Translations under genes and position numbers: made by a program
Notes under the pieces: generated by a model
Database searches by the model: none
Told to the model about the DNA's origin: nothing
Seen by the model: only the letters and a program-made list of their open reading frames with translations
Source of the DNA: a virus
Length of the DNA: 64,000 nt
Virus record (IMG/VR): IMGVR_UViG_3300050343_000089
Span: 1 to 64,000 of that record
Direction: 5' to 3' (one strand)
In this document: positions 21,045-63,885 of the stretch, piece by piece
Numbering within the stretch: position 1 is the first letter of the stretch
Layout of the letters: each line of letters starts with the position of its first letter

Positions 21045-21488
21045 ATGACAGATAAAATAAGAGAAATGTTAGTTAAGCATGAAGGCTTACGAACTTTTCC
21101 CTATAAATGCTCTGAAGATAAATTAACAATTGGCATAGGTAGAAACTTAGAGGCAAATGGCATATCAGAAGATGAAGCTATGTATCTACTTGATAATGAT
21201 ATTAAAAGAGTCATAGAGAGCTTAGACAAGCACTGGCATGTTTGGAGAAGTTTCCCTGAACTTGCACAAATGGTTTGTGTTGATTGCACCTTTCAAATGG
21301 GCATAACAGGATGGATGGCTTTTAGACATACAAGAGCACTTATGGAAATGGAGTGCTGGATAGAAGCATCAGAAGAAATACTTAGAAGTAAGTATGCAAC
21401 ACAAACACCTAATAGAGCAGCTTATAATTCAAGACAGTTAGCCTTATGTCAAAATGCCAAGAAAAACATCAGATCAACATCAGGCTAA
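21045..21488 (+). CDS. Endolysin, T4-type lysozyme (GH24)
   Basis: The peptidoglycan muramidase for lysis, 147 residues. The catalytic E-8x-(D/C)-5x-T arrangement is intact as E13 (KHEGL), C22 and T28 (LTIGIGRN), followed by the family's ISEDEAMYLLDNDI helix and QMGITGWMAF. No signal peptide or membrane anchor is present, so it depends on the holin. The last 35 bases overlap the nuclease gene that follows. Confidence 0.88.
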   Translation: MTDKIREMLVKHEGLRTFPYKCSEDKLTIGIGRNLEANGISEDEAMYLLDNDIKRVIESLDKHWHVWRSFPELAQMVCVDCTFQMGITGWMAFRHTRALMEMECWIEASEEILRSKYATQTPNRAAYNSRQLALCQNAKKNIRSTSG

Positions 21489-21900
21489 TTCAAGACTAGG
21501 TGCTTTGGGTGAATCCTTAGTACAAACATTCCTTTTGGAATATGCAGACTTCTGCTTTCCAACCCAAGAAAAACATCCAGCAGATTTAATCGTAGAGTTT
21601 GGCAACGCTATATATACAGTTCAAGTTAAAAGTAGAAGAGCTACTAAAGAAAAGAAGTTTGTCTTTGCTGCTGAGAACTCAAGATCAATGTCTGATACTT
21701 ACAAGAACTATACTTGCGATATTCTAGCCTTTGTATTCTTCTTTGATGGTCAAAAGAGAATCATGTTTAAATCTAATACATCCTCACAAAACTACTTTAC
21801 CTTTGATAAAAAGATTATCACTGACACTATGGAATTAGATTCACTTCAAGAATCTCTCGATACCCTTAGCTCCGTACCTGTTCTTAACCCTATAATATAA
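21454..21900 (+). CDS. PD-(D/E)XK nuclease-like protein
   Basis: A 148-residue protein with E20 in GALGESLV, D44 in HPADLIVEF and Q57-V-K59 in IYTVQVKSRR. This fits the PD-(D/E)XK fold, with the QVK variant used by some intron-type and resolvase-like members. The protein is identical in genome B. It starts within the lysozyme gene in another frame and lies just upstream of the replication promoter. A role in recombination or host DNA breakdown is inferred. Confidence 0.68.
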   Translation: MPRKTSDQHQANSRLGALGESLVQTFLLEYADFCFPTQEKHPADLIVEFGNAIYTVQVKSRRATKEKKFVFAAENSRSMSDTYKNYTCDILAFVFFFDGQKRIMFKSNTSSQNYFTFDKKIITDTMELDSLQESLDTLSSVPVLNPII

Positions 21901-21903
21901 TCC

Positions 21904-21939
21904 TTGCTTATTATATAAATATGATTTAATATATTTATA
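21904..21939 (+). promoter_or_regulatory. Rightward promoter of replication module with inverted TATAAATAT half-sites
   Basis: TTGCTT (21904), a 17-base spacer and TAATAT (21927) form a sigma70-like promoter about 30 bases before the next ATG. Half-sites TATAAATAT (21914..21922) and ATATTTATA (21931..21939) are inverted around GATTTAAT and overlap the promoter. The same half-sites fused head to head occupy the spacers of both leftward promoters. Conserved exactly in genome B. Confidence 0.5.
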
Positions 21940-21959
21940 TTAATTAGAGAGGAGTTAAT

Positions 21960-22049
21960 ATGACACATGAACTTATGATGAGACTAGCACTACTAGGAAT
22001 GATAGTGTGCTTATGGTTAATTTACTTATTACAAAAAGGGGGTATGTAA
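21960..22049 (+). CDS. 29-residue membrane protein
   Basis: MTHELMMRLALLGMIVCLWL then IYLLQKGGM: one hydrophobic membrane-spanning segment in a tiny protein. It has a strong ribosome site (GAGAGGAGTTAAT) and is the first gene after the replication promoter. TAATG overlaps the next gene. Identical in genome B (55841..55930). Function unknown. Confidence 0.6.
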   Translation: MTHELMMRLALLGMIVCLWLIYLLQKGGM

Positions 22050-22228
22050 TGGATATACATTTACACGAAGTTGGCAAGGTCAGACCATTGATCTTAACTA
22101 AAAGGCAAATAAGGGGTTACTACAAAGACTACCTTACTGGCGAGAACAAAGTGCAAACAGCAAATGAAGAATATGTTGTTAGAGACTCTTTGACAGAAAT
22201 TGCATATTTAATGGGTGAGCAAAGATGA
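22049..22228 (+). CDS. Small 59-residue early protein
   Basis: MDIHLHEVGKVRPLILTKRQ, then a basic/aromatic RGYYKDYLTG and VRDSLTEIAYLMGEQR. Start at 22049 is chosen because it overlaps the previous stop (ATGTAATGG). Identical in genome B. Its ATGA overlap couples it to the exonuclease gene. Not recognised. Confidence 0.55.
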   Translation: MDIHLHEVGKVRPLILTKRQIRGYYKDYLTGENKVQTANEEYVVRDSLTEIAYLMGEQR

Positions 22229-23058
22229 AGATAGAATCACTAAAGAACTTTACAGCAGAAAGGAAGGGACAAGCACTTATCTATAAAGACATACCTAATG
22301 AGGATTATCATGCAGGTGTAGGTATAAGCAGTAGTTATATTAGAAGATTTGGTCAGTCACAATTACATGCTGTAGAGCATAAACAAGAAAGCACACCAGC
22401 ACTAAAGTTTGGGACAGCAGCACATTCTTTGATTGTAGAAGGCAGAGAGGCTTTTGATAAAGAAGTAAAGGTTGTTAGTGGCTCTCCATATACAAAAGCC
22501 TACAAAGAAGAGAAGGCTGATTATGAAGATCAAGGCTATATAGTATTAAAAGAAGCAGAATTAGAACTGCTAGAAAGCATGAAGGCAAATATGATTTACG
22601 AAGGTAATGCCTACTTAAATGCTAAAGGCAAAGTTGCAGAAGCAAGTATCTACTGGTATGAAGATGACATTCTTTGTAAGTGTAGACCTGATTTATTGTG
22701 CCCACCTTTAAGTGAACCTAATTCAGACAGCAAGATAATTATAGTAGATTACAAGACCACTATATCTTGCGAACCTTATGCCTTTAATAAATCAGTTAGA
22801 AAGTATGGATATGATATGCAGGCGGCATGGTATAGAAGAGGTTTAGAGTCAGCAGGATATAGCGTAGATGGTTTTGTATTTATAGCTCAGGAGAAAGTTC
22901 ATCCTTATGCTTCTAAGGTATTTAGAATAACTAAAGAGCAAATTGATTATGGGTGGACAATAATGGAGAGATATTTAGAAGAGTACAAGGAGTATCAACA
23001 AGGTAAGCCTCTAAGTATCTATAACAGTCCTAATATTGTTGATTTGGTTTTTGAGTAA
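22225..23058 (+). CDS. RecE-like PD-(D/E)XK exonuclease (exodeoxyribonuclease VIII family)
   Basis: A 277-residue protein with the YqaJ/RecE-like layout: DYHAGVGISSSYIRRF at the start, H67 (GTAAHSLIVEG), E139 (KVAEASIYWY), D156 (CRPDLL) and D175-Y-K177 (IVDYKT), then a helix with YDMQAAWYRRGL. Such enzymes degrade one strand from DNA ends for recombination, often with an annealing protein, but no annealase is recognised here. It lies in the early operon upstream of SSB and primase genes. Genome B differs at a few residues at both ends only. Confidence 0.8.
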   Translation: MKIESLKNFTAERKGQALIYKDIPNEDYHAGVGISSSYIRRFGQSQLHAVEHKQESTPALKFGTAAHSLIVEGREAFDKEVKVVSGSPYTKAYKEEKADYEDQGYIVLKEAELELLESMKANMIYEGNAYLNAKGKVAEASIYWYEDDILCKCRPDLLCPPLSEPNSDSKIIIVDYKTTISCEPYAFNKSVRKYGYDMQAAWYRRGLESAGYSVDGFVFIAQEKVHPYASKVFRITKEQIDYGWTIMERYLEEYKEYQQGKPLSIYNSPNIVDLVFE

Positions 23059-23071
23059 GGGCAAATAGATA

Positions 23072-23176
23072 ATGAGAGTATTTAGATTTATGGAGAGTTT
23101 ATCAATTGCCCTTAACAAGATTATAGGACATGAAACGGATATAAACACAAAAGAAGTGGTAAAAATCTTAAATTAA
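23072..23176 (+). CDS. Possible 34-residue peptide
   Basis: MRVFRFMESLSIALNKIIGH then a charged end (NTKEVVKILN). It is conserved base for base in genome B and fills the gap between two genes. It has no good ribosome site, so it may not be translated. Confidence 0.35.
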   Translation: MRVFRFMESLSIALNKIIGHETDINTKEVVKILN

Positions 23177-23202
23177 TATTAATATAAAAAAGGAGAGTTT
23201 GA

Positions 23203-23361
23203 ATGGATGAGAAGACAAAAAAAGCACTATGGATATCTGAGGACTTGCATAAAGAGATCAAGATATTCGCAATACAAAATAACATGACTATTGAGTCTGC
23301 TTCGCAGATGGTTTTAAAACTAGGCATGTGCTCATATAAGGATAGCAATGGGTCAAAATAG
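23203..23361 (+). CDS. Small ribbon-helix-helix-like DNA-binding protein
   Basis: 52 residues: KKALWISEDLHKEIKIFAIQ then NMTIESASQMVLKLGM. A short beta strand followed by two helices with LHKEIK and TIESASQMV is the signature of Arc/CopG-type ribbon-helix-helix repressors. Excellent ribosome site (AAGGAGAGTTTGA). It is a candidate regulator of the early promoters. Overlaps the next gene by 14 bases. Conserved in genome B. Confidence 0.6.
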   Translation: MDEKTKKALWISEDLHKEIKIFAIQNNMTIESASQMVLKLGMCSYKDSNGSK

Positions 23362-23512
23362 CAAAGCAGTAGCTAAGAGAAGAGAAGAGTTAAAGACTGA
23401 AAAGTTAGATAAGCAAATTGCTTATTACTATTTCCAAAAGGGAGCTGGTAGTCATTACAGAGAAATACAATACCAAAGTGGAAGGGTTGTAAGGACTGAT
23501 TTCAATGCTTGA
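23348..23512 (+). CDS. Small basic 54-residue protein
   Basis: MGQNSKAVAKRREELKTEKL then AYYYFQKGAGSHYREIQYQ. Strongly basic and helical at the start, aromatic later. ATG lies inside the end of the preceding gene in another frame, so it is translationally coupled. Conserved in genome B. No known family. Confidence 0.5.
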   Translation: MGQNSKAVAKRREELKTEKLDKQIAYYYFQKGAGSHYREIQYQSGRVVRTDFNA

Positions 23513-23612
23513 CTGGATTCTATATATAGTTGGTGGTTTTGTTGGCTTGTTAGCAATAGCTACAATAATAAGCGTAGTAGCTGCAATTTACATACTTAAT
23601 AAGCTAGATTAA
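23505..23612 (+). CDS. 35-residue single-pass membrane protein
   Basis: MLDWILYIVGGFVGLLAIAT followed by IISVVAAIYILNKLD: nearly all hydrophobic. It overlaps the previous gene by eight bases and the next by one (TAATG). Present in genome B with silent changes only, which suggests it is translated. Function unknown. Confidence 0.55.
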   Translation: MLDWILYIVGGFVGLLAIATIISVVAAIYILNKLD

Positions 23613-24034
23613 TGGTAAACAGTAGAAACAAAGGAGCAGCATTTGAGAGAGTTATATGTAACAAACTTAATACTGTCCTTGAATCTAAAGGTATTGATAC
23701 TAGGGTTAAAAGAAACCTTGACCAGTATCAAACAAAAGGCATGGCTGATATATATTTTGATAAGTTCGCTATCGAATGTAAAAGATATAAAGCTAGTGCT
23801 AAGAAATCAATGTATAAGAATGAATGGTGGAAACAAGCAGTTGAGAGTGCTGGTGATAACCTAATTCCTATACTAATTTATAAATATGACAGGAAGCAAA
23901 TAATGTGTGTGATTCCTTTGTTTTTGGTTACGTCAGTTGATACGCCAAACTGGGAATGTACTTACCTCTGCCCACTGTCAGAAATATGTGAAAATTTAGA
24001 TGAAATCTTACAAAAAGCAAATGGACTTAAATAG
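23612..24034 (+). CDS. Resolvase-like PD-(D/E)XK nuclease
   Basis: A 140-residue protein opening RNKGAAFERVICNKLN, with E12, D46 (KGMADIYFD) and E55-C-K57 (FAIECKRYK). That is the Holliday-junction-resolvase-type arrangement of the PD-(D/E)XK fold. It would resolve branched DNA before packaging or trim recombination intermediates. The protein is identical in genome B despite silent base changes, a sign of purifying selection. Confidence 0.7.
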   Translation: MVNSRNKGAAFERVICNKLNTVLESKGIDTRVKRNLDQYQTKGMADIYFDKFAIECKRYKASAKKSMYKNEWWKQAVESAGDNLIPILIYKYDRKQIMCVIPLFLVTSVDTPNWECTYLCPLSEICENLDEILQKANGLK

Positions 24035-24209
24035 CTATTTGCTTCAAGAAGATTTTGAAGAGTTTTGTAGGAAGGCCTATGAAAGAATCCAAGTTGCGTG
24101 TGATGTCTTTGGTATCACAAATGATGAGGATTATTATAGTTTTAAGGAAAGGAATTACACTAGACTTGAAGCTGATTATTTAAACAGTATTGAAAGAACA
24201 ATACATTAA
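24021..24209 (+). CDS. Small acidic 62-residue protein
   Basis: MDLNSYLLQEDFEEFCRKAY then IQVACDVFGITNDEDYYSF. An in-frame ATG at 24000 could add seven residues; 24021 is chosen because it overlaps the preceding gene end in the usual style here. It precedes the SSB-like gene and is conserved in genome B. Unknown function. Confidence 0.5.
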   Translation: MDLNSYLLQEDFEEFCRKAYERIQVACDVFGITNDEDYYSFKERNYTRLEADYLNSIERTIH

Positions 24210-24224
24210 CTCTAGGAGAGTATT

Positions 24225-24839
24225 ATGGATATATTAGGAGGAATGAGCAATTCCACTGAAGGACAGCAAGTTTATCTTGCTTTTAAAACTGCTGATCAAC
24301 AATTTTTTGTTAATGGCAAAACACCAATTGATTTTAAATACTTGCAGTTAGACCCTGCAACATTTAGAAGTGGTTGGGGTAGATATAATGGAGAGTACCA
24401 ATATGTATGGGATGATAAGTTTGGTAATGCAAACGACAAACCAGCAGATGATTGGAAGAGGGCGTTTAGCTGTTGCGTTATGCCACATGGACATGACCAT
24501 GCATTAATATGGAGTAGATACACTTTTGCTGAATCTAGTGCTTTCAATAAGATACTAAGTAGCTTTTGGAATCAAATGGATGCAAATAGTGATTCACTAC
24601 CTGTTGTTGAGTATAAAGGCTCAAAAGAAATACAGGTTGGAGTAGGTAGATCGTCAGAGCTAACTTTTGAGTTCTCTAAGTTTGCACCTAGATTTGCTAA
24701 CTTTGAAATACCTGCTCACTATGGCAAAGAAGACGAGGAAGTAGAAGATACTTTTAAGAGTCCTAATGATGGTCTTGCAGAAAAAGTGCAAGAGATGGTC
24801 GATAAGAATGAATTATCAGATGACGATATTCCTTTTTAG
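24225..24839 (+). CDS. Single-stranded DNA-binding protein-like
   Basis: A 204-residue protein ending in SDDDIPF, the acidic tip with terminal Phe by which SSBs recruit partner proteins. The body is aromatic and beta-rich (DWKRAFSCCVMPHGHD, LTFEFSKFAPRFANFEIPA). It ends directly before the primase-helicase ATG, which matches a replication role. Ribosome site AGGAGAGTATT. Genome B differs at two residues. The OB fold is not obvious by eye, so the tail and context carry the call. Confidence 0.68.
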   Translation: MDILGGMSNSTEGQQVYLAFKTADQQFFVNGKTPIDFKYLQLDPATFRSGWGRYNGEYQYVWDDKFGNANDKPADDWKRAFSCCVMPHGHDHALIWSRYTFAESSAFNKILSSFWNQMDANSDSLPVVEYKGSKEIQVGVGRSSELTFEFSKFAPRFANFEIPAHYGKEDEEVEDTFKSPNDGLAEKVQEMVDKNELSDDDIPF

Positions 24840-26816
24840 ATGGAACATATTGATTGGCAAAGAATAGCTCCTGATGTTGCAAAGCAACTACTAGGAGAAC
24901 CTACTAGCACCTCATCTAAGGAATTTAGATGGGGTCGCAAGGGGAGTATGTGTCTTAACCTTACAGATGGTACATTTTATGATCACGAAGCAGGAGTCGG
25001 TGGGGGAGTAATAGATTTAATAAAACATCTAAATCAAGATGTGAATACAGTTTTAAAACAGTTTGGTCATGACTTAGCATTACATTCAAATGACTCCTTA
25101 ATCAGTGGCTTCAGTGATTCCCCTGTCACTAAGCCTAAAGGTAATGCTAGGTCATTCTCTAGGGAGCAAATGGTTGACTTGTATAGACAAGCAATTGTTA
25201 AGTTAAAGTATGCTGATAATTTTATGGTTCTCAGGTTTCCTGAAGGTCATGCAATTAAACAGAAGTATGCTCCCTTTACTCTAGGTATTGATGGTACATG
25301 GTCTTTAAAACGCCCTGACAGTCCGCTTATGCCTATTTATCATACAAATGATTGTCCTGATAAGCCTATTGTCATTAATGAAGGAGAGAAAGCCTGTAAG
25401 GGTTGTGAGAGCATTGTTAAAGGCAAATTAGATTCATGTACTTGGCATGGTGGTGTTAATAGCTGGAAGAAGGCTGACTGGACACCTATATTGCATAGAG
25501 AAGTGTGGATATTTCCTGACAATGATAAGGCTGGTAAAGATTGTGCTGATGAGATAGCAGAGCATTTAAGAAAAGAGGGATGCAGAAGAGTTAAGATAAT
25601 ACAACCACCAAAAGATTTTAAAGAGAAGGATGATTTATTTGATGCACACGAATCAGGTTATTTCGCATCATGTGATGATTTTATTAGCTTTGTTAATAAT
25701 CAAAAGGAGAAGCTACCTAAAGGTGCTTTGAGGTTTGAGAGAGCTGACTTTGTATTATCCCAAGTATCTAATCCTGACTGGCTTATAACTGATGTCTTTG
25801 AACGCAATAGACTAATAACAGTCTTTGGAGAACCAAAATCAGGCAAATCGTTTATATCTATTGCTATGGCATGTGCTGTAGCGAGAGGTGATGAGTTCTA
25901 TGGACATGCTGCTAAAAAAGCACCTGTAGTCTATCTTGCAGGGGAGGGAGTTGCAGGAATTCGTAGGAGGTTGGCCGCATATAACCAAAGTGAGTATGGT
26001 GGTAGTTTAGTCGGAGCACCTTTATTTCTATCTAATAGAGGCTCAAGAATTAATGAACCTGAAGAATACCAAAAGCTAGAAGATGAGATTAATTTGCTCA
26101 AACAAGACTTAGGGCAAATCGGTTTAATTATCTTTGATACCTTTCAGCGTAACTTCTCAGGAGATGAAAATTCTGCTCAAGAGGTCAATAAATTTGTTAA
26201 AGCCGCAGATCAGTTGATACATGACTTTGATTGTACTGTATTGCTTGTACATCATACTGGAAGAGGTAATAAAGGAAGAGCTAGGGGTAGTTCTGTTCTT
26301 GATGCTTCTATTGATGGAGAGTTCTTGGTAGAGAGAAAAGGTACTAAGCCTGATGATGATAACTCTATGCTAGTTACTATGAAGCAGACTAAGAACAAAG
26401 ATGGTATGGGTATGGCAGAGAAGAAGTTTGAATTCCATGAAGAGACTTTGATTGGCGAAGGTCTTGATGTTACTTCAGGACTGCTTATTGAGACAGATGT
26501 TGATATTAAAACTAACAAGGATATAGAAAAAGATGTTGATATTAAGATAGCAGATAAAATGTATTCACTATCTATGGCAATAGCTAAAAGTGATAACTGT
26601 AAACCTGAAGATGTATGGTTCACATACACAACATTTAATAGTGATTTAAAGGGAGTACATCATCTAAAAAATGCAAAAGATGAGCCTTATGCAAAATACA
26701 CAGTCGATAATTCACTAAGAAGAATGGAAAAGCTAGGAGTAGTAGAAAAAAATCCAAAAGGAAATGGCTATAGGCTGGTAGATGCTGATTTTACAAGGTT
26801 TAACAAGGGTGTGTAA
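24840..26816 (+). CDS. Bifunctional primase-helicase (TOPRIM + RecA-like RepA helicase)
   Basis: A 658-residue replication enzyme. Residues 30-60 (FRWGRKGSMCLNLTDGTFYD) resemble the primase N-terminal nucleic-acid binding part. TOPRIM follows: E181 in INEGEK and D227-N-D229 in IFPDND. Then a RepA-type RecA ATPase: Walker A at 330-337 (GEPKSGKS), Walker B about 429-433 (LIIFD) and LLVHHTGRG at 468-476. The C-terminal 90 residues look winged-helix-like and hold most differences from genome B. ATG immediately follows the SSB stop. No polymerase gene accompanies it, so host polymerase is probably recruited. Confidence 0.87.
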   Translation: MEHIDWQRIAPDVAKQLLGEPTSTSSKEFRWGRKGSMCLNLTDGTFYDHEAGVGGGVIDLIKHLNQDVNTVLKQFGHDLALHSNDSLISGFSDSPVTKPKGNARSFSREQMVDLYRQAIVKLKYADNFMVLRFPEGHAIKQKYAPFTLGIDGTWSLKRPDSPLMPIYHTNDCPDKPIVINEGEKACKGCESIVKGKLDSCTWHGGVNSWKKADWTPILHREVWIFPDNDKAGKDCADEIAEHLRKEGCRRVKIIQPPKDFKEKDDLFDAHESGYFASCDDFISFVNNQKEKLPKGALRFERADFVLSQVSNPDWLITDVFERNRLITVFGEPKSGKSFISIAMACAVARGDEFYGHAAKKAPVVYLAGEGVAGIRRRLAAYNQSEYGGSLVGAPLFLSNRGSRINEPEEYQKLEDEINLLKQDLGQIGLIIFDTFQRNFSGDENSAQEVNKFVKAADQLIHDFDCTVLLVHHTGRGNKGRARGSSVLDASIDGEFLVERKGTKPDDDNSMLVTMKQTKNKDGMGMAEKKFEFHEETLIGEGLDVTSGLLIETDVDIKTNKDIEKDVDIKIADKMYSLSMAIAKSDNCKPEDVWFTYTTFNSDLKGVHHLKNAKDEPYAKYTVDNSLRRMEKLGVVEKNPKGNGYRLVDADFTRFNKGV

Positions 26817-26907
26817 ATAAAGTGTGTAAACTGTGTAACTGTGTAAGATACATTATATTAGTGTGTAGAGTGTGTAGTAGTCCATAGGACTACACACTTA
26901 CACATTA
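26811..26907 (+). repeat. GTGTGTA iterons and inverted repeat after primase-helicase; candidate origin
   Basis: Within 95 bases (G)TGTGTA occurs about six times on the + strand and TACACAC/TTACACA follow inverted at 26891 and 26898. Units at 26832 and 26840 are 8-9 bases apart. GTGTG...TAGTCC-ATA-GGACTA-CACAC forms an 11-bp stem with a three-base bulge. No gene covers 26,817-26,933. Clustered iterons beside a replicative primase-helicase suggest an origin, though an operator for the next gene is possible. Conserved at 60693..60789. Confidence 0.5.
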
Positions 26908-26933
26908 TTATGTATAGCACAAAGGAATAGTAT

Positions 26934-27428
26934 ATGAGTAATTATTATGATGAGGCTTTAAAAGATAAACTTAAACAATTAAGAATCTGTGAAGCAGAGG
27001 CTAATGTTAAATGGGGTAACTGGAAGCGTATCTATAAAATGGTAGGCGTAGACTTTGAGATTAAGTTTTTAAAAGCAGAGCAGATATTAAAAACATCTTT
27101 GCAGAAAGATACGATCAAAAAGCAAATCAGTATGGTTGATATGATGATTAGAGCCTATGAACAACTAAACATCAAATGTGAGCAAAGTGGTTACATTATG
27201 ATTCAACCAAGTGCTAAGTGTTTTACCTTCGATCAGAAAACTGCATTGATATGTGATACTGATGATGAAAAGCCAGTATTAGAACTTATACACAAAGATG
27301 AGAAGGATATTATGATATTTAGCATAGAAGAATTGCTTAGGTGTATACCGCAAGATTTTATGAGAGCAAAAGAGATACTAAGCAAATTAGATAAATCTGT
27401 AAATTTTCAGAGAATAGATTATGTCTAG
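26934..27428 (+). CDS. Conserved early protein, 164 residues, unknown function
   Basis: Highly charged, mostly helical N-terminal half (YYDEALKDKLKQLRICEAEA) and a beta-rich second half (YIMIQPSAKCFTFDQKTALI). Identical in genome B. Starts shortly after the iteron region with ribosome site AAAGGAATAGTAT. It could be a replication accessory or iteron-binding protein by position, but nothing in the sequence proves it. Confidence 0.55.
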   Translation: MSNYYDEALKDKLKQLRICEAEANVKWGNWKRIYKMVGVDFEIKFLKAEQILKTSLQKDTIKKQISMVDMMIRAYEQLNIKCEQSGYIMIQPSAKCFTFDQKTALICDTDDEKPVLELIHKDEKDIMIFSIEELLRCIPQDFMRAKEILSKLDKSVNFQRIDYV

Positions 27429-27678
27429 TTGGCATGGTGGAAAAGGCTCTTCGCGTAGAAAAGAAGATAAAAAGAAAATAGATGCAAATTGGGATTTGAT
27501 ATTTAACAAAAAGGAGAAAACTATGAATTGTTGGTATTGTGGAACTGGACTTGTATGGGGTGGAGATCACGACATAGCAGATGAGAATGAAGAATATGAT
27601 ATGGTTACGAACCTATCTTGTCCTGACTGTAAGGCTTATGTTGAGGTTTATATGCCTAAAGGAGATGCAAATGACTGA
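27421..27678 (+). CDS. HGGKG-type peptide fused in frame to a Zn-ribbon protein, with internal start
   Basis: 85 residues. The first 34 (SSWHGGKGSSRRKEDKKK, NWDLIF) match a small peptide I recall as a separate gene in other phages. The rest (MNCWYCGTGLVWGGDHDIAD, then NLSCPDCKAYVEV) is a Cys-2x-Cys ... Cys-2x-Cys zinc ribbon, also usually separate. AAGGAGAAAACT precedes the in-frame ATG at 27523, so a 51-residue Zn-ribbon protein is probably also made. Conserved in genome B. Confidence 0.6.
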   Translation: MSSWHGGKGSSRRKEDKKKIDANWDLIFNKKEKTMNCWYCGTGLVWGGDHDIADENEEYDMVTNLSCPDCKAYVEVYMPKGDAND

Positions 27679-27889
27679 TTTAGTAAATAAACCCCCTCAT
27701 TACAATAAAGGCAAATTTGAATGTATAGACTACATAAAGCAACAGTTAGGTGCAAATTTCCCTGCATATCTTGAAGGTAACGCTATAAAGTATCTACATA
27801 GGCACAAATATAAAGACTCTAACATTCAAGACTTAGAGAAAAGTATTTGGTATATTAATAAATTAAAAGAACATTATGAGAACCTATAA
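27671..27889 (+). CDS. DUF3310 family protein
   Basis: 72 residues with the family's NKPPHYNKGKFECIDYIKQQ start, then GNAIKYLHRHKYKDS and DLEKSIWYINKLKEHYE. DUF3310 proteins are common in phages and sometimes fused to nucleotide kinases, but no activity is established. ATG 27671 overlaps the previous gene's stop. From KDSNIQDLEK on, it is identical to genome B's protein, while the N-terminal half is a different allele. Confidence 0.75.
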   Translation: MTDLVNKPPHYNKGKFECIDYIKQQLGANFPAYLEGNAIKYLHRHKYKDSNIQDLEKSIWYINKLKEHYENL

Positions 27890-28059
27890 TGAGCAATAAA
27901 CCGCAAATTGATGTTTCGCAATTAAAAAGGCAAATCGATAAAGGCAAATCACTAAACGAGGTGGTCATGTCTCTTGGTAAAAGCAAATCGACTATTTTAA
28001 AAGTTGCTAACGAGAATGGTTTAAAGTTTGATAAAAAGTCTCATTGGGCAAATTTATGA
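27889..28059 (+). CDS. Small helix-turn-helix protein
   Basis: 56 residues with GKSLNEVVMSLGKSKSTILK, a helix-turn-helix of resolvase/transposase type (SLNEVVMSLG-turn-STILKVANE). Start overlaps the previous stop (TAATG). Its last codons (GCA AAT TTA) are part of the repeat GGGCAAATTT. Genome B's copy at 61786..61956 differs by one residue. A candidate transcription regulator or DNA-remodelling accessory. Confidence 0.62.
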   Translation: MSNKPQIDVSQLKRQIDKGKSLNEVVMSLGKSKSTILKVANENGLKFDKKSHWANL

Positions 28060-28370
28060 ATATATCTTTAGATTATGATGATACATATTCTTTAGACCCT
28101 AAAACTTGGGATAAAATAATTGATATACTACAAAAGGCAAATCACAATGTTTTTTGTGTAACAAAGAGATATGAATCTATAGCAGATGATATAAAAGAAT
28201 CTTTAGACATACCTATAGTTTTTGTACCTAAAGGCAAATCTAAGTCTGCTGAAGTAAGGGACAGAGGTTTAAAGATAGATGTTTGGATTGATGACAAGCC
28301 TTTATCAATAACTGGTAGAAATGTAAGTCAAGGCAAATTTCATAGAAAACATTTTTTTGGGCAAATTTAA
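28056..28370 (+). CDS. HAD-like phosphatase/hydrolase, present only in genome A
   Basis: 104 residues with LDYDDTYSLDP (HAD motif I, Asp-x-Asp) and VWIDDKPLSI (motif IV, Asp-Asp), plus VFCVTKRYES in the place of motif II. This suits small phage HAD or deoxyribonucleotidase-like proteins that act on nucleotides. ATGA overlap with the HTH gene decides the start. The gene lies precisely between GGGCAAATTT copies at 28046..28055 and 28359..28368 and is missing in genome B. Confidence 0.65.
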   Translation: MNISLDYDDTYSLDPKTWDKIIDILQKANHNVFCVTKRYESIADDIKESLDIPIVFVPKGKSKSAEVRDRGLKIDVWIDDKPLSITGRNVSQGKFHRKHFFGQI

Positions 28371-28400
28371 CATTGAGGCAAATTTAGGTTTAAGGCAAAT

Positions 28401-29057
28401 ATGGATATACAAGTAAAAACTGATCTCAAACAACTGCAAAAAAAGCTAGATATTCTTCGTGACAAAACATTCAACAAAGTTATGAGCGAAGGAATAAACT
28501 TTACAGCAGAGAGAGTTGTCAATGCACAAAGGCAAATGTTGGTAAAAAAACTACATAGACCAAAACCATTTTCAGTTAAATCTATAATAATGTCACAATT
28601 TGCTAAGCCTAGTAAAACACGATTAAAAGCAACTGTAAGGGTTAAAGATAAGTCCGCGTCTTATTTGTATTACATTTATACAGGAGATATTGAACCTGCT
28701 AGAAGAGAGGCTTATGCTTCACCAACAAACGAAGGCAGAACAAAAGCAAACCAATATGGAAATATTGTTACCAAAAAAGGACTTATAAAAAAAATAGATG
28801 CAACAGACAAAAGCAACAGAAAAGGCTCACGTTTTGTTGGTGTACCTAAAGGTAAAGGCTCTAAAGTTTATGGTGTATGGGAGAGACAGGGTAAGAAGGG
28901 TAGAGAAGGCTTAAACCTTCTTGTTGCCTATACTCCCTTTATTAGGCATAGAAAGTTTATTGATTGGTTTAAGTTGAGTCATAAGGTAGTGAAGAATAAT
29001 CTTTATAAAGAGATCAATAAGCAAATGATTAAAAGGGTTAAGAGGGTAATGAGATAA
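28401..29057 (+). CDS. Minor tail protein Z-like (tail completion), outside the tail module
   Basis: 218 residues, very basic. N-terminal LKQLQKKLDILRDKTFNKVM then GINFTAERVVNAQRQML recalls lambda gpZ (prophage minor tail Z), as do LKATVRVKD and the C-terminal YGVWERQGK...LLVAYTPF. gpZ helps tails join heads correctly. Finding it after early genes, some 20 kb from the other tail genes, is unusual. It begins at ATG inside the repeat motif (AAGGCAAATATGG). Genome B's version (62015..62701) is only about half identical. Confidence 0.55.
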   Translation: MDIQVKTDLKQLQKKLDILRDKTFNKVMSEGINFTAERVVNAQRQMLVKKLHRPKPFSVKSIIMSQFAKPSKTRLKATVRVKDKSASYLYYIYTGDIEPARREAYASPTNEGRTKANQYGNIVTKKGLIKKIDATDKSNRKGSRFVGVPKGKGSKVYGVWERQGKKGREGLNLLVAYTPFIRHRKFIDWFKLSHKVVKNNLYKEINKQMIKRVKRVMR

Positions 29058-29100
29058 AGGCAAATTTACCTTAGAGGCAAATTTACCTTTACTGCAAATT
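29058..29100 (+). repeat. Three GGCAAATTT copies between convergent operons
   Basis: AAGGCAAATTTACC, GAGGCAAATTTACC and CTGCAAATTTA follow one another with about 18-base spacing between the end of the rightward genes and the leftward operon. GGCAAATTTACC is one mismatch from a perfect palindrome (GGYAAATTTRCC). The same trio is at 62702..62745. It may serve as a boundary between converging transcripts. Confidence 0.7.
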
Positions 29101-29103
29101 TAA

Positions 29104-29331
29104 TTAATTACTATACAACAAACAAGATTGTATAAATAATGAATCCGCCTCATCATAGTTTTTAAAATATGCAATATCAGAATAAATACCGCTTTTTCTT
29201 TTCGGCTCATATTTATCACCTTCATATTTAAGGATATCAACATAATATTTTTTGCCTTTTTGTTTTAAAAGAACATAAGGTTTTTTAGTTTTAAAATGTG
29301 TTACCCTGCTTTGCAATAATACTTTTTTCAT
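29104..29331 (-). CDS. Small basic 75-residue protein, last gene of leftward operon
   Basis: MKKVLLQSRVTHFKTKKPYV then KQKGKKYYVDILKYEGDKY. Start at 29331 is set by AAGGAGCAAGACTAATG, which ends the upstream gene. In genome B only the first five codons survive (62745..62762). No family is recognised. Confidence 0.6.
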   Translation of the reverse strand: MKKVLLQSRVTHFKTKKPYVLLKQKGKKYYVDILKYEGDKYEPKRKSGIYSDIAYFKNYDEADSLFIQSCLLYSN

Positions 29332-29549
29332 TAGTCTTGCTCCTTGCAATCAATACAAATAAATTCTTCACAATCTGAATTCCAAACATACTGTAAACAA
29401 CTATCACAACAAGTATGCTCAGGTTGACTTGCATTAAATTCTTGTTCAAATTCTTCATCATTCAAAGAATTATCTATATTTATAAATGGGTGATTATTAT
29501 TAGAATGTAATGTTCTTATTTGTTTAAATGTAAATTTTTCTATATTCAT
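29331..29549 (-). CDS. Small Cys-rich (Zn-finger-like) protein
   Basis: 72 residues, ending HTCCDSCLQYVWNSDCEEFI then CIDCKEQD: Cys pairs C-x2-C and C-x2-C around a short linker, a likely zinc ribbon. The first half is polar (TLHSNNNHPFINI). Starts by TAATG overlap in the AAGGAGCAAGACTAATG junction and itself ends in KEQD. Genome B has three different genes in this slot. Confidence 0.6.
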   Translation of the reverse strand: MNIEKFTFKQIRTLHSNNNHPFINIDNSLNDEEFEQEFNASQPEHTCCDSCLQYVWNSDCEEFICIDCKEQD

Positions 29550-29737
29550 TAGTCTTGCTCCTTCTTATATGCACACACAACAAAGTTATAACCCTCTGCC
29601 TCTGTATCTAAATCTAACAAATCAGTAAGCGTATCCAATACATTTACTTTATGTGATTCAGCATAATCAACACCAAACCACACACCGTCAGGAACTATAG
29701 TCCACCCATTCTTTTTAAGTTCTTGTTTAGTTATCAT
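29549..29737 (-). CDS. Small 62-residue protein, first gene of leftward operon
   Basis: MITKQELKKNGWTIVPDGVW then DYAESHKVNVLDTLTDLLDL. Start at 29737 is supported by AAGGAGTTAAATAAC and a promoter about 40 bases upstream. Ends in KKEQD within the shared junction. Identical in genome B (63234..63422). Unknown function. Confidence 0.65.
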   Translation of the reverse strand: MITKQELKKNGWTIVPDGVWFGVDYAESHKVNVLDTLTDLLDLDTEAEGYNFVVCAYKKEQD

Positions 29738-29773
29738 GTTATTTAACTCCTTAATTTTATTTAACATACACCT

Positions 29774-29802
29774 ATGATATATAAATATATATTTATATGC
29801 AA
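29774..29802 (-). promoter_or_regulatory. Leftward promoter PL2 with palindromic operator
   Basis: On the minus strand TTGCAT, 17 bases, TATCAT. The spacer is occupied by TATAAATATATATTTATA (29780..29797), a perfect 18-base palindrome also found in the other leftward promoter. The start codon it serves is at 29737. Same layout at 63459..63487. Confidence 0.55.
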
Positions 29803-29810
29803 TAGTTAAA

Positions 29811-30010
29811 TGCAAATTTATATTTAAGGCAAATTTAAGATCAAGGCAAATACTGTTTTGATGCAAATTTAGTATCAAGGCAAATACTGTTTTGATGCAA
29901 ATTTAGTATCAAGGCAAATTTAGTATCAAGGCAAATTTAGTATCAAGGCAAATTTATTTTTCATAAAAGGCAAATTTATTTTTCATAAAAAAAGGCAAAT
30001 TTATTTTTGA
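29811..30010 (+). repeat. AAGGCAAATTT tandem array (two unit types), no gene
   Basis: Eight AAGGCAAAT copies start at 29826, 29843, 29877, 29911, 29928, 29945, 29967 and 29992, with three shorter TGCAAATTT copies at 29811, 29862 and 29896. The first type is AAGGCAAATTTAGTATC (17-base period). The second continues ATTTTTCAT plus an A-run (22-26 bases). All copies point the same way. Genome B's array is about twice as long. It lies upstream of PL2. Unit lengths, lack of unique spacers and gradual drift exclude CRISPR. Confidence 0.9.
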
Positions 30011-30192
30011 CAAAAAACATCAAAATTTTTTTTGGACAAAAAAAACAAAGACCAACAACAAAAACACCACAAGACATTCTAAGCCTCTACATTACAATAT
30101 AAATATATATAGGTAGTAATGCATTACTTTAATATAAAAACACCGCATAAAGGCTTAGAGGCTCTCTTATATAAAGATTTATTTATTAAGGG
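30011..30192. other. Noncoding stretch with invertible T8-(4)-A8 element
   Basis: No convincing gene. T8-GGAC-A8 lies at 30026..30045 and is T8-GTCC-A8, its exact reverse complement, at 63900..63919 in genome B. A partial TATAAATATATATA site is at 30099. The 63-codon frame from 30119 overlaps the terminator and has no ribosome site, so it is not called. The stretch matches 63,890-64,000 otherwise almost base for base. Confidence 0.55.
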
Positions 30193-30193
30193 C

Positions 30194-30220
30194 ATAAAAA
30201 AAGGCGGTAATAATACCGCC
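30194..30220 (-). terminator. Intrinsic terminator of leftward operon 1
   Basis: Read on the minus strand: GGCGGTA-TTAT-TACCGCC followed by a run of seven T. A 7-bp GC-rich stem with tetraloop and U-tract is a textbook intrinsic terminator. It lies about 20 bases past the last small gene of the operon. In the + direction no T-run follows. Confidence 0.82.
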
Positions 30221-30242
30221 CTTTATTGGTTAGGTTTAGTTA

Positions 30243-30302
30243 TTAGTCTTCTTCTTTATGCTCCCAATATGTCCAATAATAGGCTTCAGAATGTCCATTC
30301 AT
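30243..30302 (-). CDS. Possible 19-residue peptide before terminator
   Basis: MNGHSEAYYWTYWEHKEED, aromatic and acidic, preceded by AAAGAAGATTATAAGC. It fills the space between the Zn-ribbon gene and the terminator. Possibly the real end of an upstream frame altered by indels. Low certainty. Confidence 0.35.
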   Translation of the reverse strand: MNGHSEAYYWTYWEHKEED

Positions 30303-30316
30303 GCTTATAATCTTCT

Positions 30317-30477
30317 TTAGCTTCTCTTTAATCCATCTTTTCCTAATATTTGCTCTACACATTTAACAGAGCAAACAGATTCAGAATCGCCAACAATAAA
30401 CACGCCTGTTTGTTGGTTAGCTTGTCAATTGTTTTATTACAAGATTCACAAGCTACATTCCATGTTTCAAAACTCAT
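30317..30477 (-). CDS. Small Zn-ribbon-like protein, one-base frameshift
   Basis: Starts MSFETWNVACESCNKTIDKL. After about residue 24 a single-base indel is needed to continue TGVFIVGDSESVCSVKCVEQ to the stop. Joined, it has C-x2-C and C-x3-C pairs about 30 residues apart, typical of a small zinc-binding protein. The start overlaps the stop of the upstream gene (ATGA). Confidence 0.5.
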
Positions 30478-30640
30478 TCTTGTACCTCTCTCATGTTGTC
30501 GTAGTCTCTCACTATCTCTATATCAACATGAAACAAAGCACAACACTCTTGATTATCACAGCCCCATGTTTCAACTTCACAGCCTATATAATCAAAACAT
30601 ATTCAAGAACACCCTTTTTGCATTTTTTACATCTTTGCAT
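30474..30640 (-). CDS. Small Zn-ribbon-like protein, frameshift in a T-run
   Basis: MQRCKKCKKGVLEY, then after an indel in TTTT, DYIGCEVETWGCDNQECCAL and a C-terminal REVQE. Cys pairs C-x2-C and C-x4-C suggest zinc binding. The start is in GGGGTAAATAATG, the same junction string as at 30888. Confidence 0.5.
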
Positions 30641-30888
30641 TATTTACCCCTATAAATTGTTTAGCTAAATCAGACTCACAACCCACATAAAAGGGTATAG
30701 ATTGGATTCTTACCTTTGTATAACCTTTTGATTCACATAATAAAGCTATTCTCTCTGCAACTGCTTTGCTTTTAATAGTTTCGCCTAAGTGGTGAGTCTG
30801 TAACAGGCTCTCTTGTAAATATTTGGGTTAATGCCCTATCTTCTAGGCTGTTACGCCCCAATTTATATATTCAGTATATATCATTCAT
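30627..30888 (-). CDS. Small early protein of about 87 residues, frameshifted
   Basis: Reconstructed across indels near 30797 and 30870: MNDIY, then RNSLEDRALTQIFTREPVTD and TIKSKAVAERIALLCESKGY, ending LAKQFIGVNNAKM. It is clear over its second half, which is open for about 55 codons. Starts at TAATG overlap with the upstream gene. Family unknown. Confidence 0.45.
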
Positions 30889-31028
30889 TATTTACCCCTT
30901 ATTAATTTTAATTTATGCCCTTGATTAGTTAGGCGGTTAAATTTGTCTTGCATGGTTACAAGACATGAACCCCTAAAGGCTACAAAGCCTTTAAGTGATC
31001 CTTTGTTTATTATGATTTTATATTTCAT
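30888..31028 (-). CDS. Small basic 46-residue protein
   Basis: MKYKIIINKGSLKGFVAFRG then LVTMQDKFNRLTNQGHKLKL. Intact frame, TAATG overlaps on both sides, which supports the call. Basic and beta-like; unknown function. Confidence 0.5.
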   Translation of the reverse strand: MKYKIIINKGSLKGFVAFRGSCLVTMQDKFNRLTNQGHKLKLIRGK

Positions 31029-31363
31029 TACGCCACCTCTTGCTCTTGCATATAATCAAAAACGATTTCTTCGCCTATGATATATGTATACATGTTGACT
31101 ATCTTTTCGGGGTCGCTAAAGTCTGTGTAGACTTCGCCAAAGTTGTCTATTTCATATTCTTTTATGAAGTTGATAATATTAAAGGCTTCATCTCCTAGCC
31201 ATTGTTTAGCTTGATAAGTTCCTATGATGTAATAATCATTGTTAAAAGCGTCATGATGCACCTCTTGATTATCATTGTTTATTAAATAATCTTTATCATA
31301 CTCTAAACAATCTTTTAAAAAGTCCTCTAAATGTTCTCTTATTTCTTGTTTTTTGTAGTCCAT
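31028..31363 (-). CDS. Conserved phage protein (DUF7222-like), 111 residues
   Basis: Contains HHDAFNNDYYIIGTYQAKQW then LGDEAFNIINFIKEYEIDNF and SDPEKIVNMYTYIIGEEIV, a strongly conserved block I recall in phage early regions and tentatively link to DUF7222. Ribosome site GGGGCGTAACA. Acidic and helical. Unknown function. Confidence 0.62.
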   Translation of the reverse strand: MDYKKQEIREHLEDFLKDCLEYDKDYLINNDNQEVHHDAFNNDYYIIGTYQAKQWLGDEAFNIINFIKEYEIDNFGEVYTDFSDPEKIVNMYTYIIGEEIVFDYMQEQEVA

Positions 31364-31579: not shown

Positions 31580-31837
31580 TAATTAATTTAATAAATATTT
31601 ATTTCTTTTTTAATACCTTTATAAGTTTCATGAATAATACATTTAGTATTATTTTCTTGTCATTCCCTTGATTTTTTCGCGTTGTTTCTTCTTGTCCTCT
31701 GAATCCCTTTGTTTATAGGCTTCTGAAACGCTAGGTTCTTCTGACCCAGTGGGTACGCAGGTTGCGTGATCGCATTATTTTTGTAGAGACAGAGCTGTAA
31801 CATCAGCCGTATTTATAATATAAAAGTCTTTTTGTAA
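31580..31837. other. Noncoding region upstream of small terminase; candidate cos/packaging site
   Basis: No gene on either strand. In lambda-type phages cos lies just before the small terminase gene. Here 31735-31775 is richer in G+C than its surroundings and contains ACGCA-GGT-TGCGT (31755..31767), a perfect 5-bp inverted repeat like the dyad around a terminase nick site. No counterpart from genome A is in the window to compare. Confidence 0.35.
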
Positions 31838-60698: not shown

Positions 60699-60789
60699 AT
60701 AAAGTGTGTAAAGTGTGTAACTGTGTAAGATACATTATATTAGTGTGTAGAGTGTGTAGTAGTCCATAGGACTACACACTTACACATTA
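60693..60789 (+). repeat. GTGTGTA iterons and inverted repeat; candidate origin (genome B)
   Basis: Same set as in A. One base differs (AAAGTGTGTAAC for AAACTGTGTAAC), which turns one iteron into a better GTGTGTAA match. Confidence 0.5.
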
Positions 60790-60815
60790 TTATGTATAGC
60801 ACAAAGGAATAGTAT

Positions 60816-61560: not shown

Positions 61561-61786
61561 AGAGAAAATAGATTATGTAAATGCACCTCCCCATTATCGC
61601 AAAGGGTCTATAGAATGTATTGACGCAATAAAATCAGCATTAACCCAAGATGAATATAAGGGATATTTAAAGGGTGCTGCCTTAAAATATATTTGGAGAG
61701 AATCTTATAAAGACTCTAACATTCAAGACTTAGAGAAAAGTATTTGGTATATTAATAAATTAAAAGAACATTATGAGAACCTATAA
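61553..61786 (+). CDS. DUF3310 family protein, different N-terminal allele (genome B)
   Basis: 77 residues. VNAPPHYRKGSIECIDAIKS then EYKGYLKGAALKYIWRESYK replaces A's N-terminal half; from KDSNIQDLEK to the end protein and bases are identical. ATG follows AAGGGAGAGGCAA. Confidence 0.75.
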   Translation: MSKEKIDYVNAPPHYRKGSIECIDAIKSALTQDEYKGYLKGAALKYIWRESYKDSNIQDLEKSIWYINKLKEHYENL

Positions 61787-61956
61787 TGAGCAATAAACCG
61801 CAAATTGATGTTTCGCAATTAAAAAGGCAAATCGATAAAGGCAAATCACTAAACGAGGTAGTTATGTCTCTTGGTAAAAGCAAATCGACTATTTTAAAAG
61901 TTGCTAACGAGAATGGTTTAAAGTTTGATAAAAAGTCTCCTTGGGCAAATTTGTAA
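61786..61956 (+). CDS. Small helix-turn-helix protein (genome B)
   Basis: 56 residues, one change (His to Pro in KKSPWANL). Ends TGG GCA AAT TTG TAA, still using the repeat GGGCAAATTT, but followed by repeats in place of the HAD-like gene. Confidence 0.62.
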   Translation: MSNKPQIDVSQLKRQIDKGKSLNEVVMSLGKSKSTILKVANENGLKFDKKSPWANL

Positions 61957-62014
61957 TTAAGGCAAATTTAGTACAGGCAAATTTAGGTTTAAGGCAAATT
62001 TATTACAGGCAAAT
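61957..62014 (+). repeat. Four GGCAAAT copies where genome A has the HAD-like gene
   Basis: AAGGCAAATTTAG, CAGGCAAATTTAGG, AAGGCAAATTTATT and CAGGCAAATATGG follow in 58 bases. No gene. The last one supplies the ATG of the Z-like gene. Confidence 0.75.
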
Positions 62015-62701
62015 ATGGAAATAGTATTAAAGACAAATATAAAAGAATTGCAAAAGAAAATGCAAATAGTTCAAAAGAAAGTATTTATGAAAAGTTTATC
62101 TGAAGGCATAAACAAAACTGCTGAAATGGTAGCAAAGGCAAATAACGATAAATTAAAACAAAAACTAAACAAACCCATGAAAACAAGTGTTACTGCTGTT
62201 GCTGTCACCCATTATGCCAAACCAAATAAATACCAACTATCAGCACAAATAATGGTCAAGGATTATGCCTCGAAATTCCTGTATTACATTTATACAGGAG
62301 AAGATGAACATGCTCGAAGAGAGAAGTATCCCTCTCCAACTAGGGACGGAAAACATTTAGCTGGGGTTACTGGTAATATTCAAAAACTAAAAAGTAGTGA
62401 AAAGGCTACTGGCACAGGAACAGGTTTATTAGCTAGGATAGATAAAACAGAAAGCAATGATAGGGCAAAATCACGTTTTATGGGCAAACCTAAAGGCAAA
62501 GGCTCAGGGGTTTATGGTATATGGCAAAGAACAGGTAGAAAGGGTAGAGGTGGACTTAAATTGCTTGTAGCCTTTACTCCATTTATTAAACATAAAAAAT
62601 TGATCGACTTTTTCAAACTATCTACCAAAGTTGTAAAGAATAATTTGTATAAAGAAGTAAACAAACAAGCCATCAAAAGAATTAACAAGGCAATGAGATA
62701 A
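62015..62701 (+). CDS. Minor tail protein Z-like (genome B)
   Basis: 228 residues, roughly half identical to A's and ten longer through a KLKSSEKATGTGTG insert. Shared landmarks: FLYYIYTGEDEHARREKYPS, VYGIWQRTGRKGRGG and KVVKNNLYKEVNKQ. Strong divergence next to nearly identical neighbours suggests allele exchange. Confidence 0.55.
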   Translation: MEIVLKTNIKELQKKMQIVQKKVFMKSLSEGINKTAEMVAKANNDKLKQKLNKPMKTSVTAVAVTHYAKPNKYQLSAQIMVKDYASKFLYYIYTGEDEHARREKYPSPTRDGKHLAGVTGNIQKLKSSEKATGTGTGLLARIDKTESNDRAKSRFMGKPKGKGSGVYGIWQRTGRKGRGGLKLLVAFTPFIKHKKLIDFFKLSTKVVKNNLYKEVNKQAIKRINKAMR

Positions 62702-62744
62702 AGGCAAATTTACCATTAGAGGCAAATTTACCTTTACTGCAAAT
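62702..62744 (+). repeat. Three GGCAAATTT copies between convergent operons (genome B)
   Basis: Same trio as at 29058..29100 with one changed linker base. The third copy is joined directly to the remnant described next. Confidence 0.7.
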
Positions 62745-62762
62745 TTATAATACTTTTTCCAT
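62745..62762 (-). pseudogene. Five-codon remnant of the leftward operon's last gene
   Basis: ATG GAA AAA GTA TTA TAA: matches the start of genome A's 75-residue gene (MKKVLL) and then stops at the TGCAAATTTA repeat. The start still sits in AAGGAGCAAGACTAATG. Roughly 210 bases present in A are gone. Confidence 0.65.
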
Positions 62763-63234: not shown

Positions 63235-63422
63235 TAGTCTTGCTCCTTCTTGTATGCACACACAACAAAGTTATAACCCTCTGCCTCTGTATCTAAATCT
63301 AACAAATCAGTAAGCGTATCCAATACATTTACTTTATGTGATTCAGCATAATCAACACCAAACCACACACCGTCAGGAACTATAGTCCACCCATTCTTTT
63401 TAAGTTCTTGTTTAGTTATCAT
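63234..63422 (-). CDS. Small 62-residue protein, first gene of leftward operon (genome B)
   Basis: Identical to the protein at 29549..29737; the base identity stops abruptly after the junction, where different genes follow. Confidence 0.65.
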   Translation of the reverse strand: MITKQELKKNGWTIVPDGVWFGVDYAESHKVNVLDTLTDLLDLDTEAEGYNFVVCAYKKEQD

Positions 63423-63458
63423 GTTATTTAACTCCTTAATTTTATTTAACATACACCT

Positions 63459-63494: not shown

Positions 63495-63885
63495 ATGCAA
63501 AATATTTAAGGCAAATAGTATTAAGGCAAATTTCAAGTATCAAGGCAAATTTAGTATCAAGGCAAATTTAAGATCAAGGCAAATTTAGTATCAAGGCAAA
63601 TTTAGTATCAAGGCAAATTTAGTATCAAGGCAAATTTAGTATCAAGGCAAATTTATTTTTTATAAAAAAAGGCAAATTTATTTTTCATAAAAAAAGGCAA
63701 ATTTATTTTTTATTTAGGCAAATTTATTTTTCATAAAAAAAGGCAAATTTCATTTTTTATAAAAAAAGGCAAATTTATTTTTCATAAAAAAAGGCAAATT
63801 TATTTTTCATAAAAAAAGGCAAATTTATTTTTTATAAAAAAAGGCAAATTTATTTTTCATAAAAAAAGGCAAATTTATTTTTGAC
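63495..63885 (+). repeat. AAGGCAAATTT tandem array, long version (genome B)
   Basis: About 18 copies of (A/T)(A/)GGCAAAT in one orientation: roughly nine of the 17-base type (AAGGCAAATTTAGTATC) up to 63,655, then about nine of the 22-26-base type with ATTTTT(C/T)AT plus A-run. One unit is TAGGCAAATTT. Units are near perfect, so recent expansion is likely. No gene. Confidence 0.92.

Follow-up and report, generated by a model that had tools for sequence, protein, structure and literature searches.

The DNA stretch analysed here (the window, 64,000 nucleotides) comprises positions 1 to 64,000 of the IMG/VR virus record IMGVR_UViG_3300050343_000089, and our subject is a directional tandem array at 29811-30010 together with a small helix-turn-helix (HTH) protein that is a candidate reader of its units. 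The record is linear and 65,678 bases long, and it holds one ~34-kb phage in about 1.9 copies, arranged head to tail. Copies A and B are 78-97% identical over most segments and meet at the cohesive-end (cos) site; such a record may be a real concatemer or a chimera assembled from two strains. A sequence-only reading of the window had spoken of two genomes, which holds in that the copies have diverged and differ in their number of repeat units, but both are head-to-tail copies within a single record. Recognised genes encode a GpA-type terminase, a DUF3799 (RecE-like) exonuclease, a Toprim/AAA_25 helicase-primase, a PD-(D/E)XK endonuclease, DUF3310 and a gpZ-like minor tail protein, and putative portal, capsid, tail and lysozyme genes were assigned from translations and gene order. 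The elements central to the analysis are as follows.

29810..30004, + strand: main array of copy A, with nine 17-base units followed by longer ones, 11 in total
63509..63876, + strand: main array of copy B, 18 units
28330..28402, + strand: unit group before gpZ, copy A
61943..62014, + strand: unit group between the HTH gene and gpZ, copy B
29057..29102, + strand: three units immediately following gpZ, where gpZ and leftward operon 1 converge, copy A
62701..62747, + strand: three units directly after gpZ, copy B
27889..28059, + strand: gene for the 56-residue HTH protein (class 1, candidate reader), copy A
61786..61956, + strand: gene for the 56-residue HTH protein, copy B
21045..29057, + strand: domain of scattered GGCAAAT, from the lysozyme gene to gpZ

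The 11 units of copy A (29811-30010) and 18 of copy B (63495-63885) counted by the earlier reading were confirmed, with every unit of both arrays on the + strand and, in both copies, 17-base units first and 22-26-base units with a T-run/A-run after them. The motif has the core GCAAAT and the best form AAGGCAAATTTA. Its core starts at 29812, 29829, 29846, 29863, 29880, 29897, 29914, 29931, 29948, 29970 and 29995 in array A and at 18 positions from 63511 to 63869 in array B. Tandem Repeats Finder scored the arrays at 101-187 (A) and 243-418 (B), and AAGGCAAATTT, with at most one mismatch, occurs 48 times in the window as against 4.3 (s.d. 1.9) in shuffled sequence, a count reached by 0 of 100 shuffles. 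Further unit groups left of the arrays (28.3-28.4, 29.06-29.10, 61.94-62.01 and 62.70-62.74 kb) and scattered single motif copies had gone unnoticed, and a lone unit stands at 28047, at the 3′ end of the HTH gene of copy A. One gene, g108 (28056-28370), separates the HTH gene from gpZ in copy A, where motif units flank it, and is absent from copy B.

Relatives were collected with a gapped pattern for tandem AGGCAAATTT, which returned 99 IMG/VR stretches (about ten of them, among those read, looked unrelated), and with a helicase query, which returned 80 loci. The recovery of tandem copies in so many virome contigs indicates that the array is no artefact of a single assembly. Most array and helicase matches overlap within one group of marine phages of ~34 kb with a lambda-type GpA terminase. 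This group resembles the CRP-822-type phage family in gene order, GpA-type terminase, helicase and single-stranded DNA-binding protein, although neither the repeats nor cos is mentioned in the text describing that family; its low-GC subgroup V is predicted to infect SAR86, and no integrase is described (PMC12629253). The isolates CRP-821 (L432) and CRP-406 (L433) lack GGCAAATTT. Across relatives, arrays occupy three sites: the gap between the HTH gene and gpZ, the position directly after gpZ, and the space between two leftward operons, where the main array lies. Neighbouring units are 17 bases apart in 521 unique pairs, with minor classes of 13-15, 21, 23, 25 and 27 bases and variable linkers. 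Because array size ranges from 4 to 20 units and the spacings share no common helical phase, extra units are likely gained and lost by minisatellite-type slippage, which supports the active expansion and contraction proposed from sequence. The sequence-only reading knew of no described phage element of this kind, and a direct DNA comparison to phage records gave no match, and the titles listed by a literature search for GGCAAATTT were unrelated.

Presence of the motif tracks the 56-residue HTH gene, which sits between DUF3310 and gpZ, 1.8 kb left of the array. AlphaFold predicts three helices for the class-1 protein (HTH-1; mean predicted local distance difference test score 80). Its Foldseek matches in the PDB are weak, none with an E value below 0.001, and they include serine-recombinase DNA-binding domains that superpose at ~1 Å over 36-37 columns. 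Within the HTH-1 gene, motif copies at 27930, 27944 and 27983 stay fixed at synonymous sites across 43 sequences; the class-2 homologues, which have a different recognition helix (CHPSTVRRK type), lack these fixed copies. HTH class 1 was present in 77 of 77 motif-bearing contigs, and GGCAAATTT was absent from 73 of 74 class-2 contigs. The same contrast appears within shared genes. The exonuclease gene carries 3.28 GCAAAT per kb in class 1 and 0.15 in class 2, a 22-fold difference at 69-83% identity, and the corresponding densities are 2.19 versus 0.69 in the helicase, 5.75 versus 0.64 in g164, 2.57 versus 0.58 in the lysozyme gene and 2.42 versus 0.63 in pdX1. An SSB-like (single-stranded DNA-binding) gene is likewise richer in class 1, and TerL shows no class difference. 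No region-restricted polar k-mer that might be the partner of HTH class 2 was found. At the exonuclease locus itself (22225-23058 and relatives), two types of recombination exonuclease swap across the group, the RecE/DUF3799 type and another whose sequence reads as YqaJ/lambda-exo-like. The RecE-type enzyme first seemed exclusive to array phages and was considered as the reader; this candidate was rejected, as either exonuclease type occurs with either HTH class, four combinations in all. The proposal that the array is a protein-binding platform fits these data, with the co-inherited HTH protein as the candidate reader.

The word is locked to one DNA strand, and it extends well beyond the arrays. 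In 79 class-1 sequences GGCAAATTT has a strand ratio of 786:0. The shorter core GCAAAT/GGCAAAT keeps to that strand and is scattered across coding DNA, starting with the lysozyme gene and reaching the array, at 2-7 times its frequency in synonymous-codon shuffles; in copy A scattered GGCAAAT occurs at 21152, 22104, 22584, 23060, 25422, 25842 and 26113 and in the HTH-gpZ zone. Every array phage tested showed an excess of GGCAAAT over these shuffles, and no array-less phage did. Pooled early genes contain 257 copies against 38.6 ± 6.3 in synonymous shuffles, late genes 9 against 9.1, and early genes of array-less phages 5 against 9.2; the reverse complement occurs 10 times against 6.4. GCAAAT and GGCAAAT rank top among all hexamers and heptamers, respectively. 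The excess begins at about the lysozyme gene and pdX1, reaches the array and occupies many separate codon positions (38 sense versus 6 antisense in the helicase gene), with density increasing toward the right cos end. Late genes and bins mostly show no excess; a few genes and a single bin depart from this, with low counts. Left of the array, leftward genes are enriched in antisense GCAAAT (77 versus 27.4 ± 3.6; sense, 26 versus 20.6), and leftward genes right of the array show no excess in either sense. The word therefore follows the DNA strand, not the direction of transcription, and extends no further than the array. Plain in these sequences are the motif and its one-sided domain, selection at synonymous sites, and the association with HTH class 1 and with a module of leftward genes. 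Two simpler accounts were set aside: avoidance of type III restriction sites in one orientation would, by reasoning, account for absence from one strand but not for excess on the other, and AAGG as a ribosome-binding site matches some gpZ starts and not others.

A further correlate of the motif is a leftward module around the main array, with these features.

29771..29802, − strand: PL2, a conserved leftward early promoter predicted by sequence comparison, whose −35-like TTGCAT adjoins the first array unit
29104..29739, − strand: leftward operon 1, variable small genes, with the motif antisense across relatives
30888..31363, − strand: leftward operon 2, right of the array, without motif excess in relatives
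30010..30233, + strand: right flank, with a T-poor A/C-rich stretch, a promoter-like AT-rich block and an inverted repeat

Between gpZ and terS, this module spans 2.0-4.5 kb in class 1 (13 of 13) and 96-156 bases in class 2 (34 of 36). Motif, HTH class and leftward module are very probably coupled. In most arrays the first unit keeps a constant distance to PL2, and the array had been suggested to regulate PL2. A role confined to that promoter is not supported: two relatives (L050 and L035) have lost operon 1 together with PL2 and kept the array and operon 2, which fits a barrier to read-through from operon 2 and argues against a PL2-limited function. Operon 1 is highly variable across relatives (29104-31363), is missing from L050 and L035, where the loss fell between two unit groups, and is likely an exchange hot spot for accessory genes. 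An early leftward leader, ATGTTAAATAAAATTAAGGAGTTAAATAACATG (29720-29753 and 63405-63438), recurs upstream of the first early genes in array-less L156 and L160.

The loss of operon 1 between unit groups, like the presence of g108 flanked by units in one copy only, is what would be expected if the array were a neutral minisatellite or a recombination platform for turnover of accessory cassettes. A neutral repeat would not, however, be expected to come with synonymous-site selection kilobases away or with an HTH association, and we regard this account as highly improbable.

Right of the array, the inverted repeat GGCGGTAATAATACCGCC (30203-30220) is a predicted strong terminator for leftward transcription, and a conserved block at 30066-30233 combines it with the promoter-like AT-rich stretch. 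A short RNA is possible there; in Rfam the flank matches STnc430 only below threshold, at 27 bits versus the 47 needed, although the match spans the full model. The strand lock and the right boundary at the array and terminator would also suit an RNA-level element in a long rightward transcript running from the early promoter through gpZ and antisense to operon 1, with the array at its 3′ end, and unit spacing without helical phase agrees with this. Yet the HTH-class difference extends to the lysozyme gene and pdX1, to the left of the predicted early promoter, no RNA family emerged beyond the sub-threshold match, and the partner protein is of a DNA-binding HTH type. An RNA-level function thus appears distinctly unlikely.

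Up to 20 units facing the same way, a one-sided domain and the HTH link could also reflect a head-to-tail nucleoprotein filament, in which the HTH protein would nucleate on the arrays, spread leftward and silence the early region late in infection, its contacts fixing the orientation. Spacings of 13-15, 17, 21, 23, 25 and 27 bases share no helical phase, and about one scattered copy per kb is too sparse for a continuous filament; we consider this model quite unlikely.

The genome ends provide a further constraint and introduce the following feature.

31758..31770, no strand assigned: cos, 13-base cohesive end CAGGTTGCGTGAT, from the pile-up of contig ends

At least ten class-1 contigs fetched by TerL begin at CAGGTTGC, which precedes TerL by ~580 bases, and more than ten contigs that bear the array terminate in ...CAGGTTGC(AGCAC/GTGAT). 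These 13 bases, shared by contig starts and ends, place the cohesive end at 31758-31770, where a conserved block had already hinted at cos, and hence place the array 1.75 kb from the right end. The pile-up in metagenome assemblies (L195, L197, L026, L028 and others) locates the cohesive end of a phage group not in culture, with no need of bench work. In array-less class-2 relatives, which also package from cos, contigs start at GGT(T/A)ATT instead. The suggestion that the array is a terminase site is not borne out, given its distance from cos and packaging from cos by array-less phages; nor does it adjoin cosN and terS as a cosB-like site would.

An array this close to the right end of a cohesive-end phage invites comparison with Chi. 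In lambda, E. coli Chi is recognised by RecBCD entering at the right cos end, in the orientation seen here: the motif is a short polar word that reads 5′-3′ toward the right end, and its density rises there. As a Chi-like word, it would switch a RecBCD/AddAB-type enzyme of host or phage, entering at that end and moving left, from degradation to recombination. Unlike Chi, the motif forms tandem arrays, is tied to a phage HTH gene and shows no excess in the terminal 1.7 kb; the HTH-class link is left without a reason, the four exonuclease/HTH combinations all exist, and SAR86 chromosomes show no enrichment, though SAR86 may not host class-1 phages. We judge a Chi-like role unlikely. The lambda exonuclease pause site GGCGATTCT is also a strand-specific nonamer, begins with GGC, affects the exonuclease and lies near a lambda cos end (PMC7496540), but exonuclease type and motif are unlinked in the marine group.

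The host comparison covered several SAR86 sets, with the caveat just given applying to each count. In a SAR86 single-cell genome the motif occurs 4 times in coding DNA versus 12 expected, and 61 SAR86-order genomes carry some 15-40 RGGCAAATT each, in a lineage that may not host class-1 phages; the array was found in none of 203 SAR86-order genomes. In L181 (SAR86 single-cell contig C4, L191-L194; at about 47-50 kb), ~47 kb of SAR86 chromosome genes run straight into an array-less relative. The junction may be an amplification chimera or an integration, no integrase having been seen, and it supports SAR86 as host of the array-less class.

An origin had been a further proposal for the array, and an origin-like element is found elsewhere in the genome.

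26817..26930, + strand: iteron and palindrome element, origin-like, behind the helicase-primase gene and outside the motif system (copy B counterpart, 60699-60812)

The gap between the helicase gene and g164 contains direct repeats and a palindrome in the relatives examined, with or without an array, and also in CRP-821 and CRP-406. L126, L134, L144, L156 and these two isolates share a layout of direct repeats, an AT-rich stretch and a palindrome with inverted repeats. The iteron word varies by lineage (GTGTGTAA, TTGGGTGT, GGGAAGTT, TTAGTTACAT and others) and apparently changes with the helicase C-terminus, so that the collection looks like a set of matched initiator/iteron pairs; judging by sequence, this element is the likely origin. 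Since the same GGCAAATTT array occurs in phages whose iteron versions differ, the array is unlikely to be read by the helicase.

An iteron origin, or a second origin, at the array itself would be in keeping with its direct 17-base repeats beside an A-rich, T-poor stretch and with DnaA boxes (TGTGGATAA) at fixed positions, +47, +69 and +81 from the array end, in about nine relatives (L070, L068, L098, L018, L089, L084, L067, L019 and L012). Those boxes are absent beside the window's array and most others. Repeats of an iteron origin change with the initiator, whereas this array is constant across helicase/iteron lineages; its word is also scattered through coding DNA, which an origin leaves unexplained, and the element behind the helicase fills the origin role in array and array-less phages and isolates alike. 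Origin as the sole function is therefore not upheld, and an origin at the array is improbable, although some array phages do carry DnaA boxes beside it.

The interpretation that we favour, tentatively, is that the array is where a strand-locked motif clusters most densely, and is most likely a set of HTH-1 binding sites, which would restrain leftward transcription. That HTH-1 binds the motif is probable from their co-inheritance; that the motif has a directional role in transcription is a more tentative proposal, to which we give somewhat less than even weight. Bound HTH-1 would let rightward RNA polymerase, transcribing the early genes and gpZ, pass and would stop or slow leftward polymerase from operon 2 and PL2. 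The clusters would mark three hold-back points for leftward transcription, at the operon 2/operon 1, operon 1/gpZ and gpZ/HTH boundaries, and the scattered copies would suppress antisense transcription over the early region. We prefer this directional-transcription reading because motif, HTH-1 and leftward module co-occur, because sites lie only on the path of leftward polymerases from these operons, and because clusters fall at operon boundaries.

The closest known system in action appears to be the stoperators of cluster A mycobacteriophages (L5, TipsytheTRex), asymmetric dispersed sites with biased orientation and a proposed directional effect on transcription (PMC9283540). Shared features are many short asymmetric sites dispersed in the genome, an orientation bias and a small phage HTH gene nearby. 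Stoperators of the L5 type are bound by a phage repressor that stops elongation, a part for which HTH-1 is a candidate here. The differences are several: orientation follows transcription in the L5 type and the DNA strand here; L5-type sites occupy short intergenic spaces and promoters, whereas the scattered sites here are mostly inside codons and the arrays intergenic; tandem arrays and a one-sided ~9-kb domain are found here; and a 56-residue protein stands in place of a two-domain 183-residue repressor, in a phage family described without an integrase (PMC12629253). Given the differences in orientation and intergenic placement, we do not file the motif as a member of the L5 stoperators.

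Several points weigh against the directional-transcription reading. Besides the departure from L5-type sites, which follow transcription direction, motif copies within operon 1 would obstruct that very operon, unless the protein comes into play late. The lysozyme gene and pdX1 carry the motif left of the predicted early promoter, more than the model needs. HTH class may stand for a host or lineage difference, and the contigs are related, so that z-scores and p-values are nominal; the safer evidence is the counts of distinct positions and the class contrast within one gene.

In more general terms, the phage may encode a directional traffic code, a proposal that we likewise hold tentatively, in which the HTH protein would read a strand-locked word written into codons and expandable arrays over about a third of the genome, making passage permissive for one direction of RNA polymerase, replication fork or nuclease and not for the other. 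We know of no described phage system in which a single small DNA-binding protein is coupled in this way to a motif that is locked to one strand and spans a whole domain. If the proposal is true, a protein and its site would form a compact, separable pair that gives DNA traffic a direction, in a group of marine phages of which few are in culture. Depending on HTH class, the same genes either carry the motif or lack it, a natural experiment that makes the proposal testable using a single small protein and a single oligonucleotide. The motif also shows that a signal at the level of DNA can influence which codons the early genes of a phage use.
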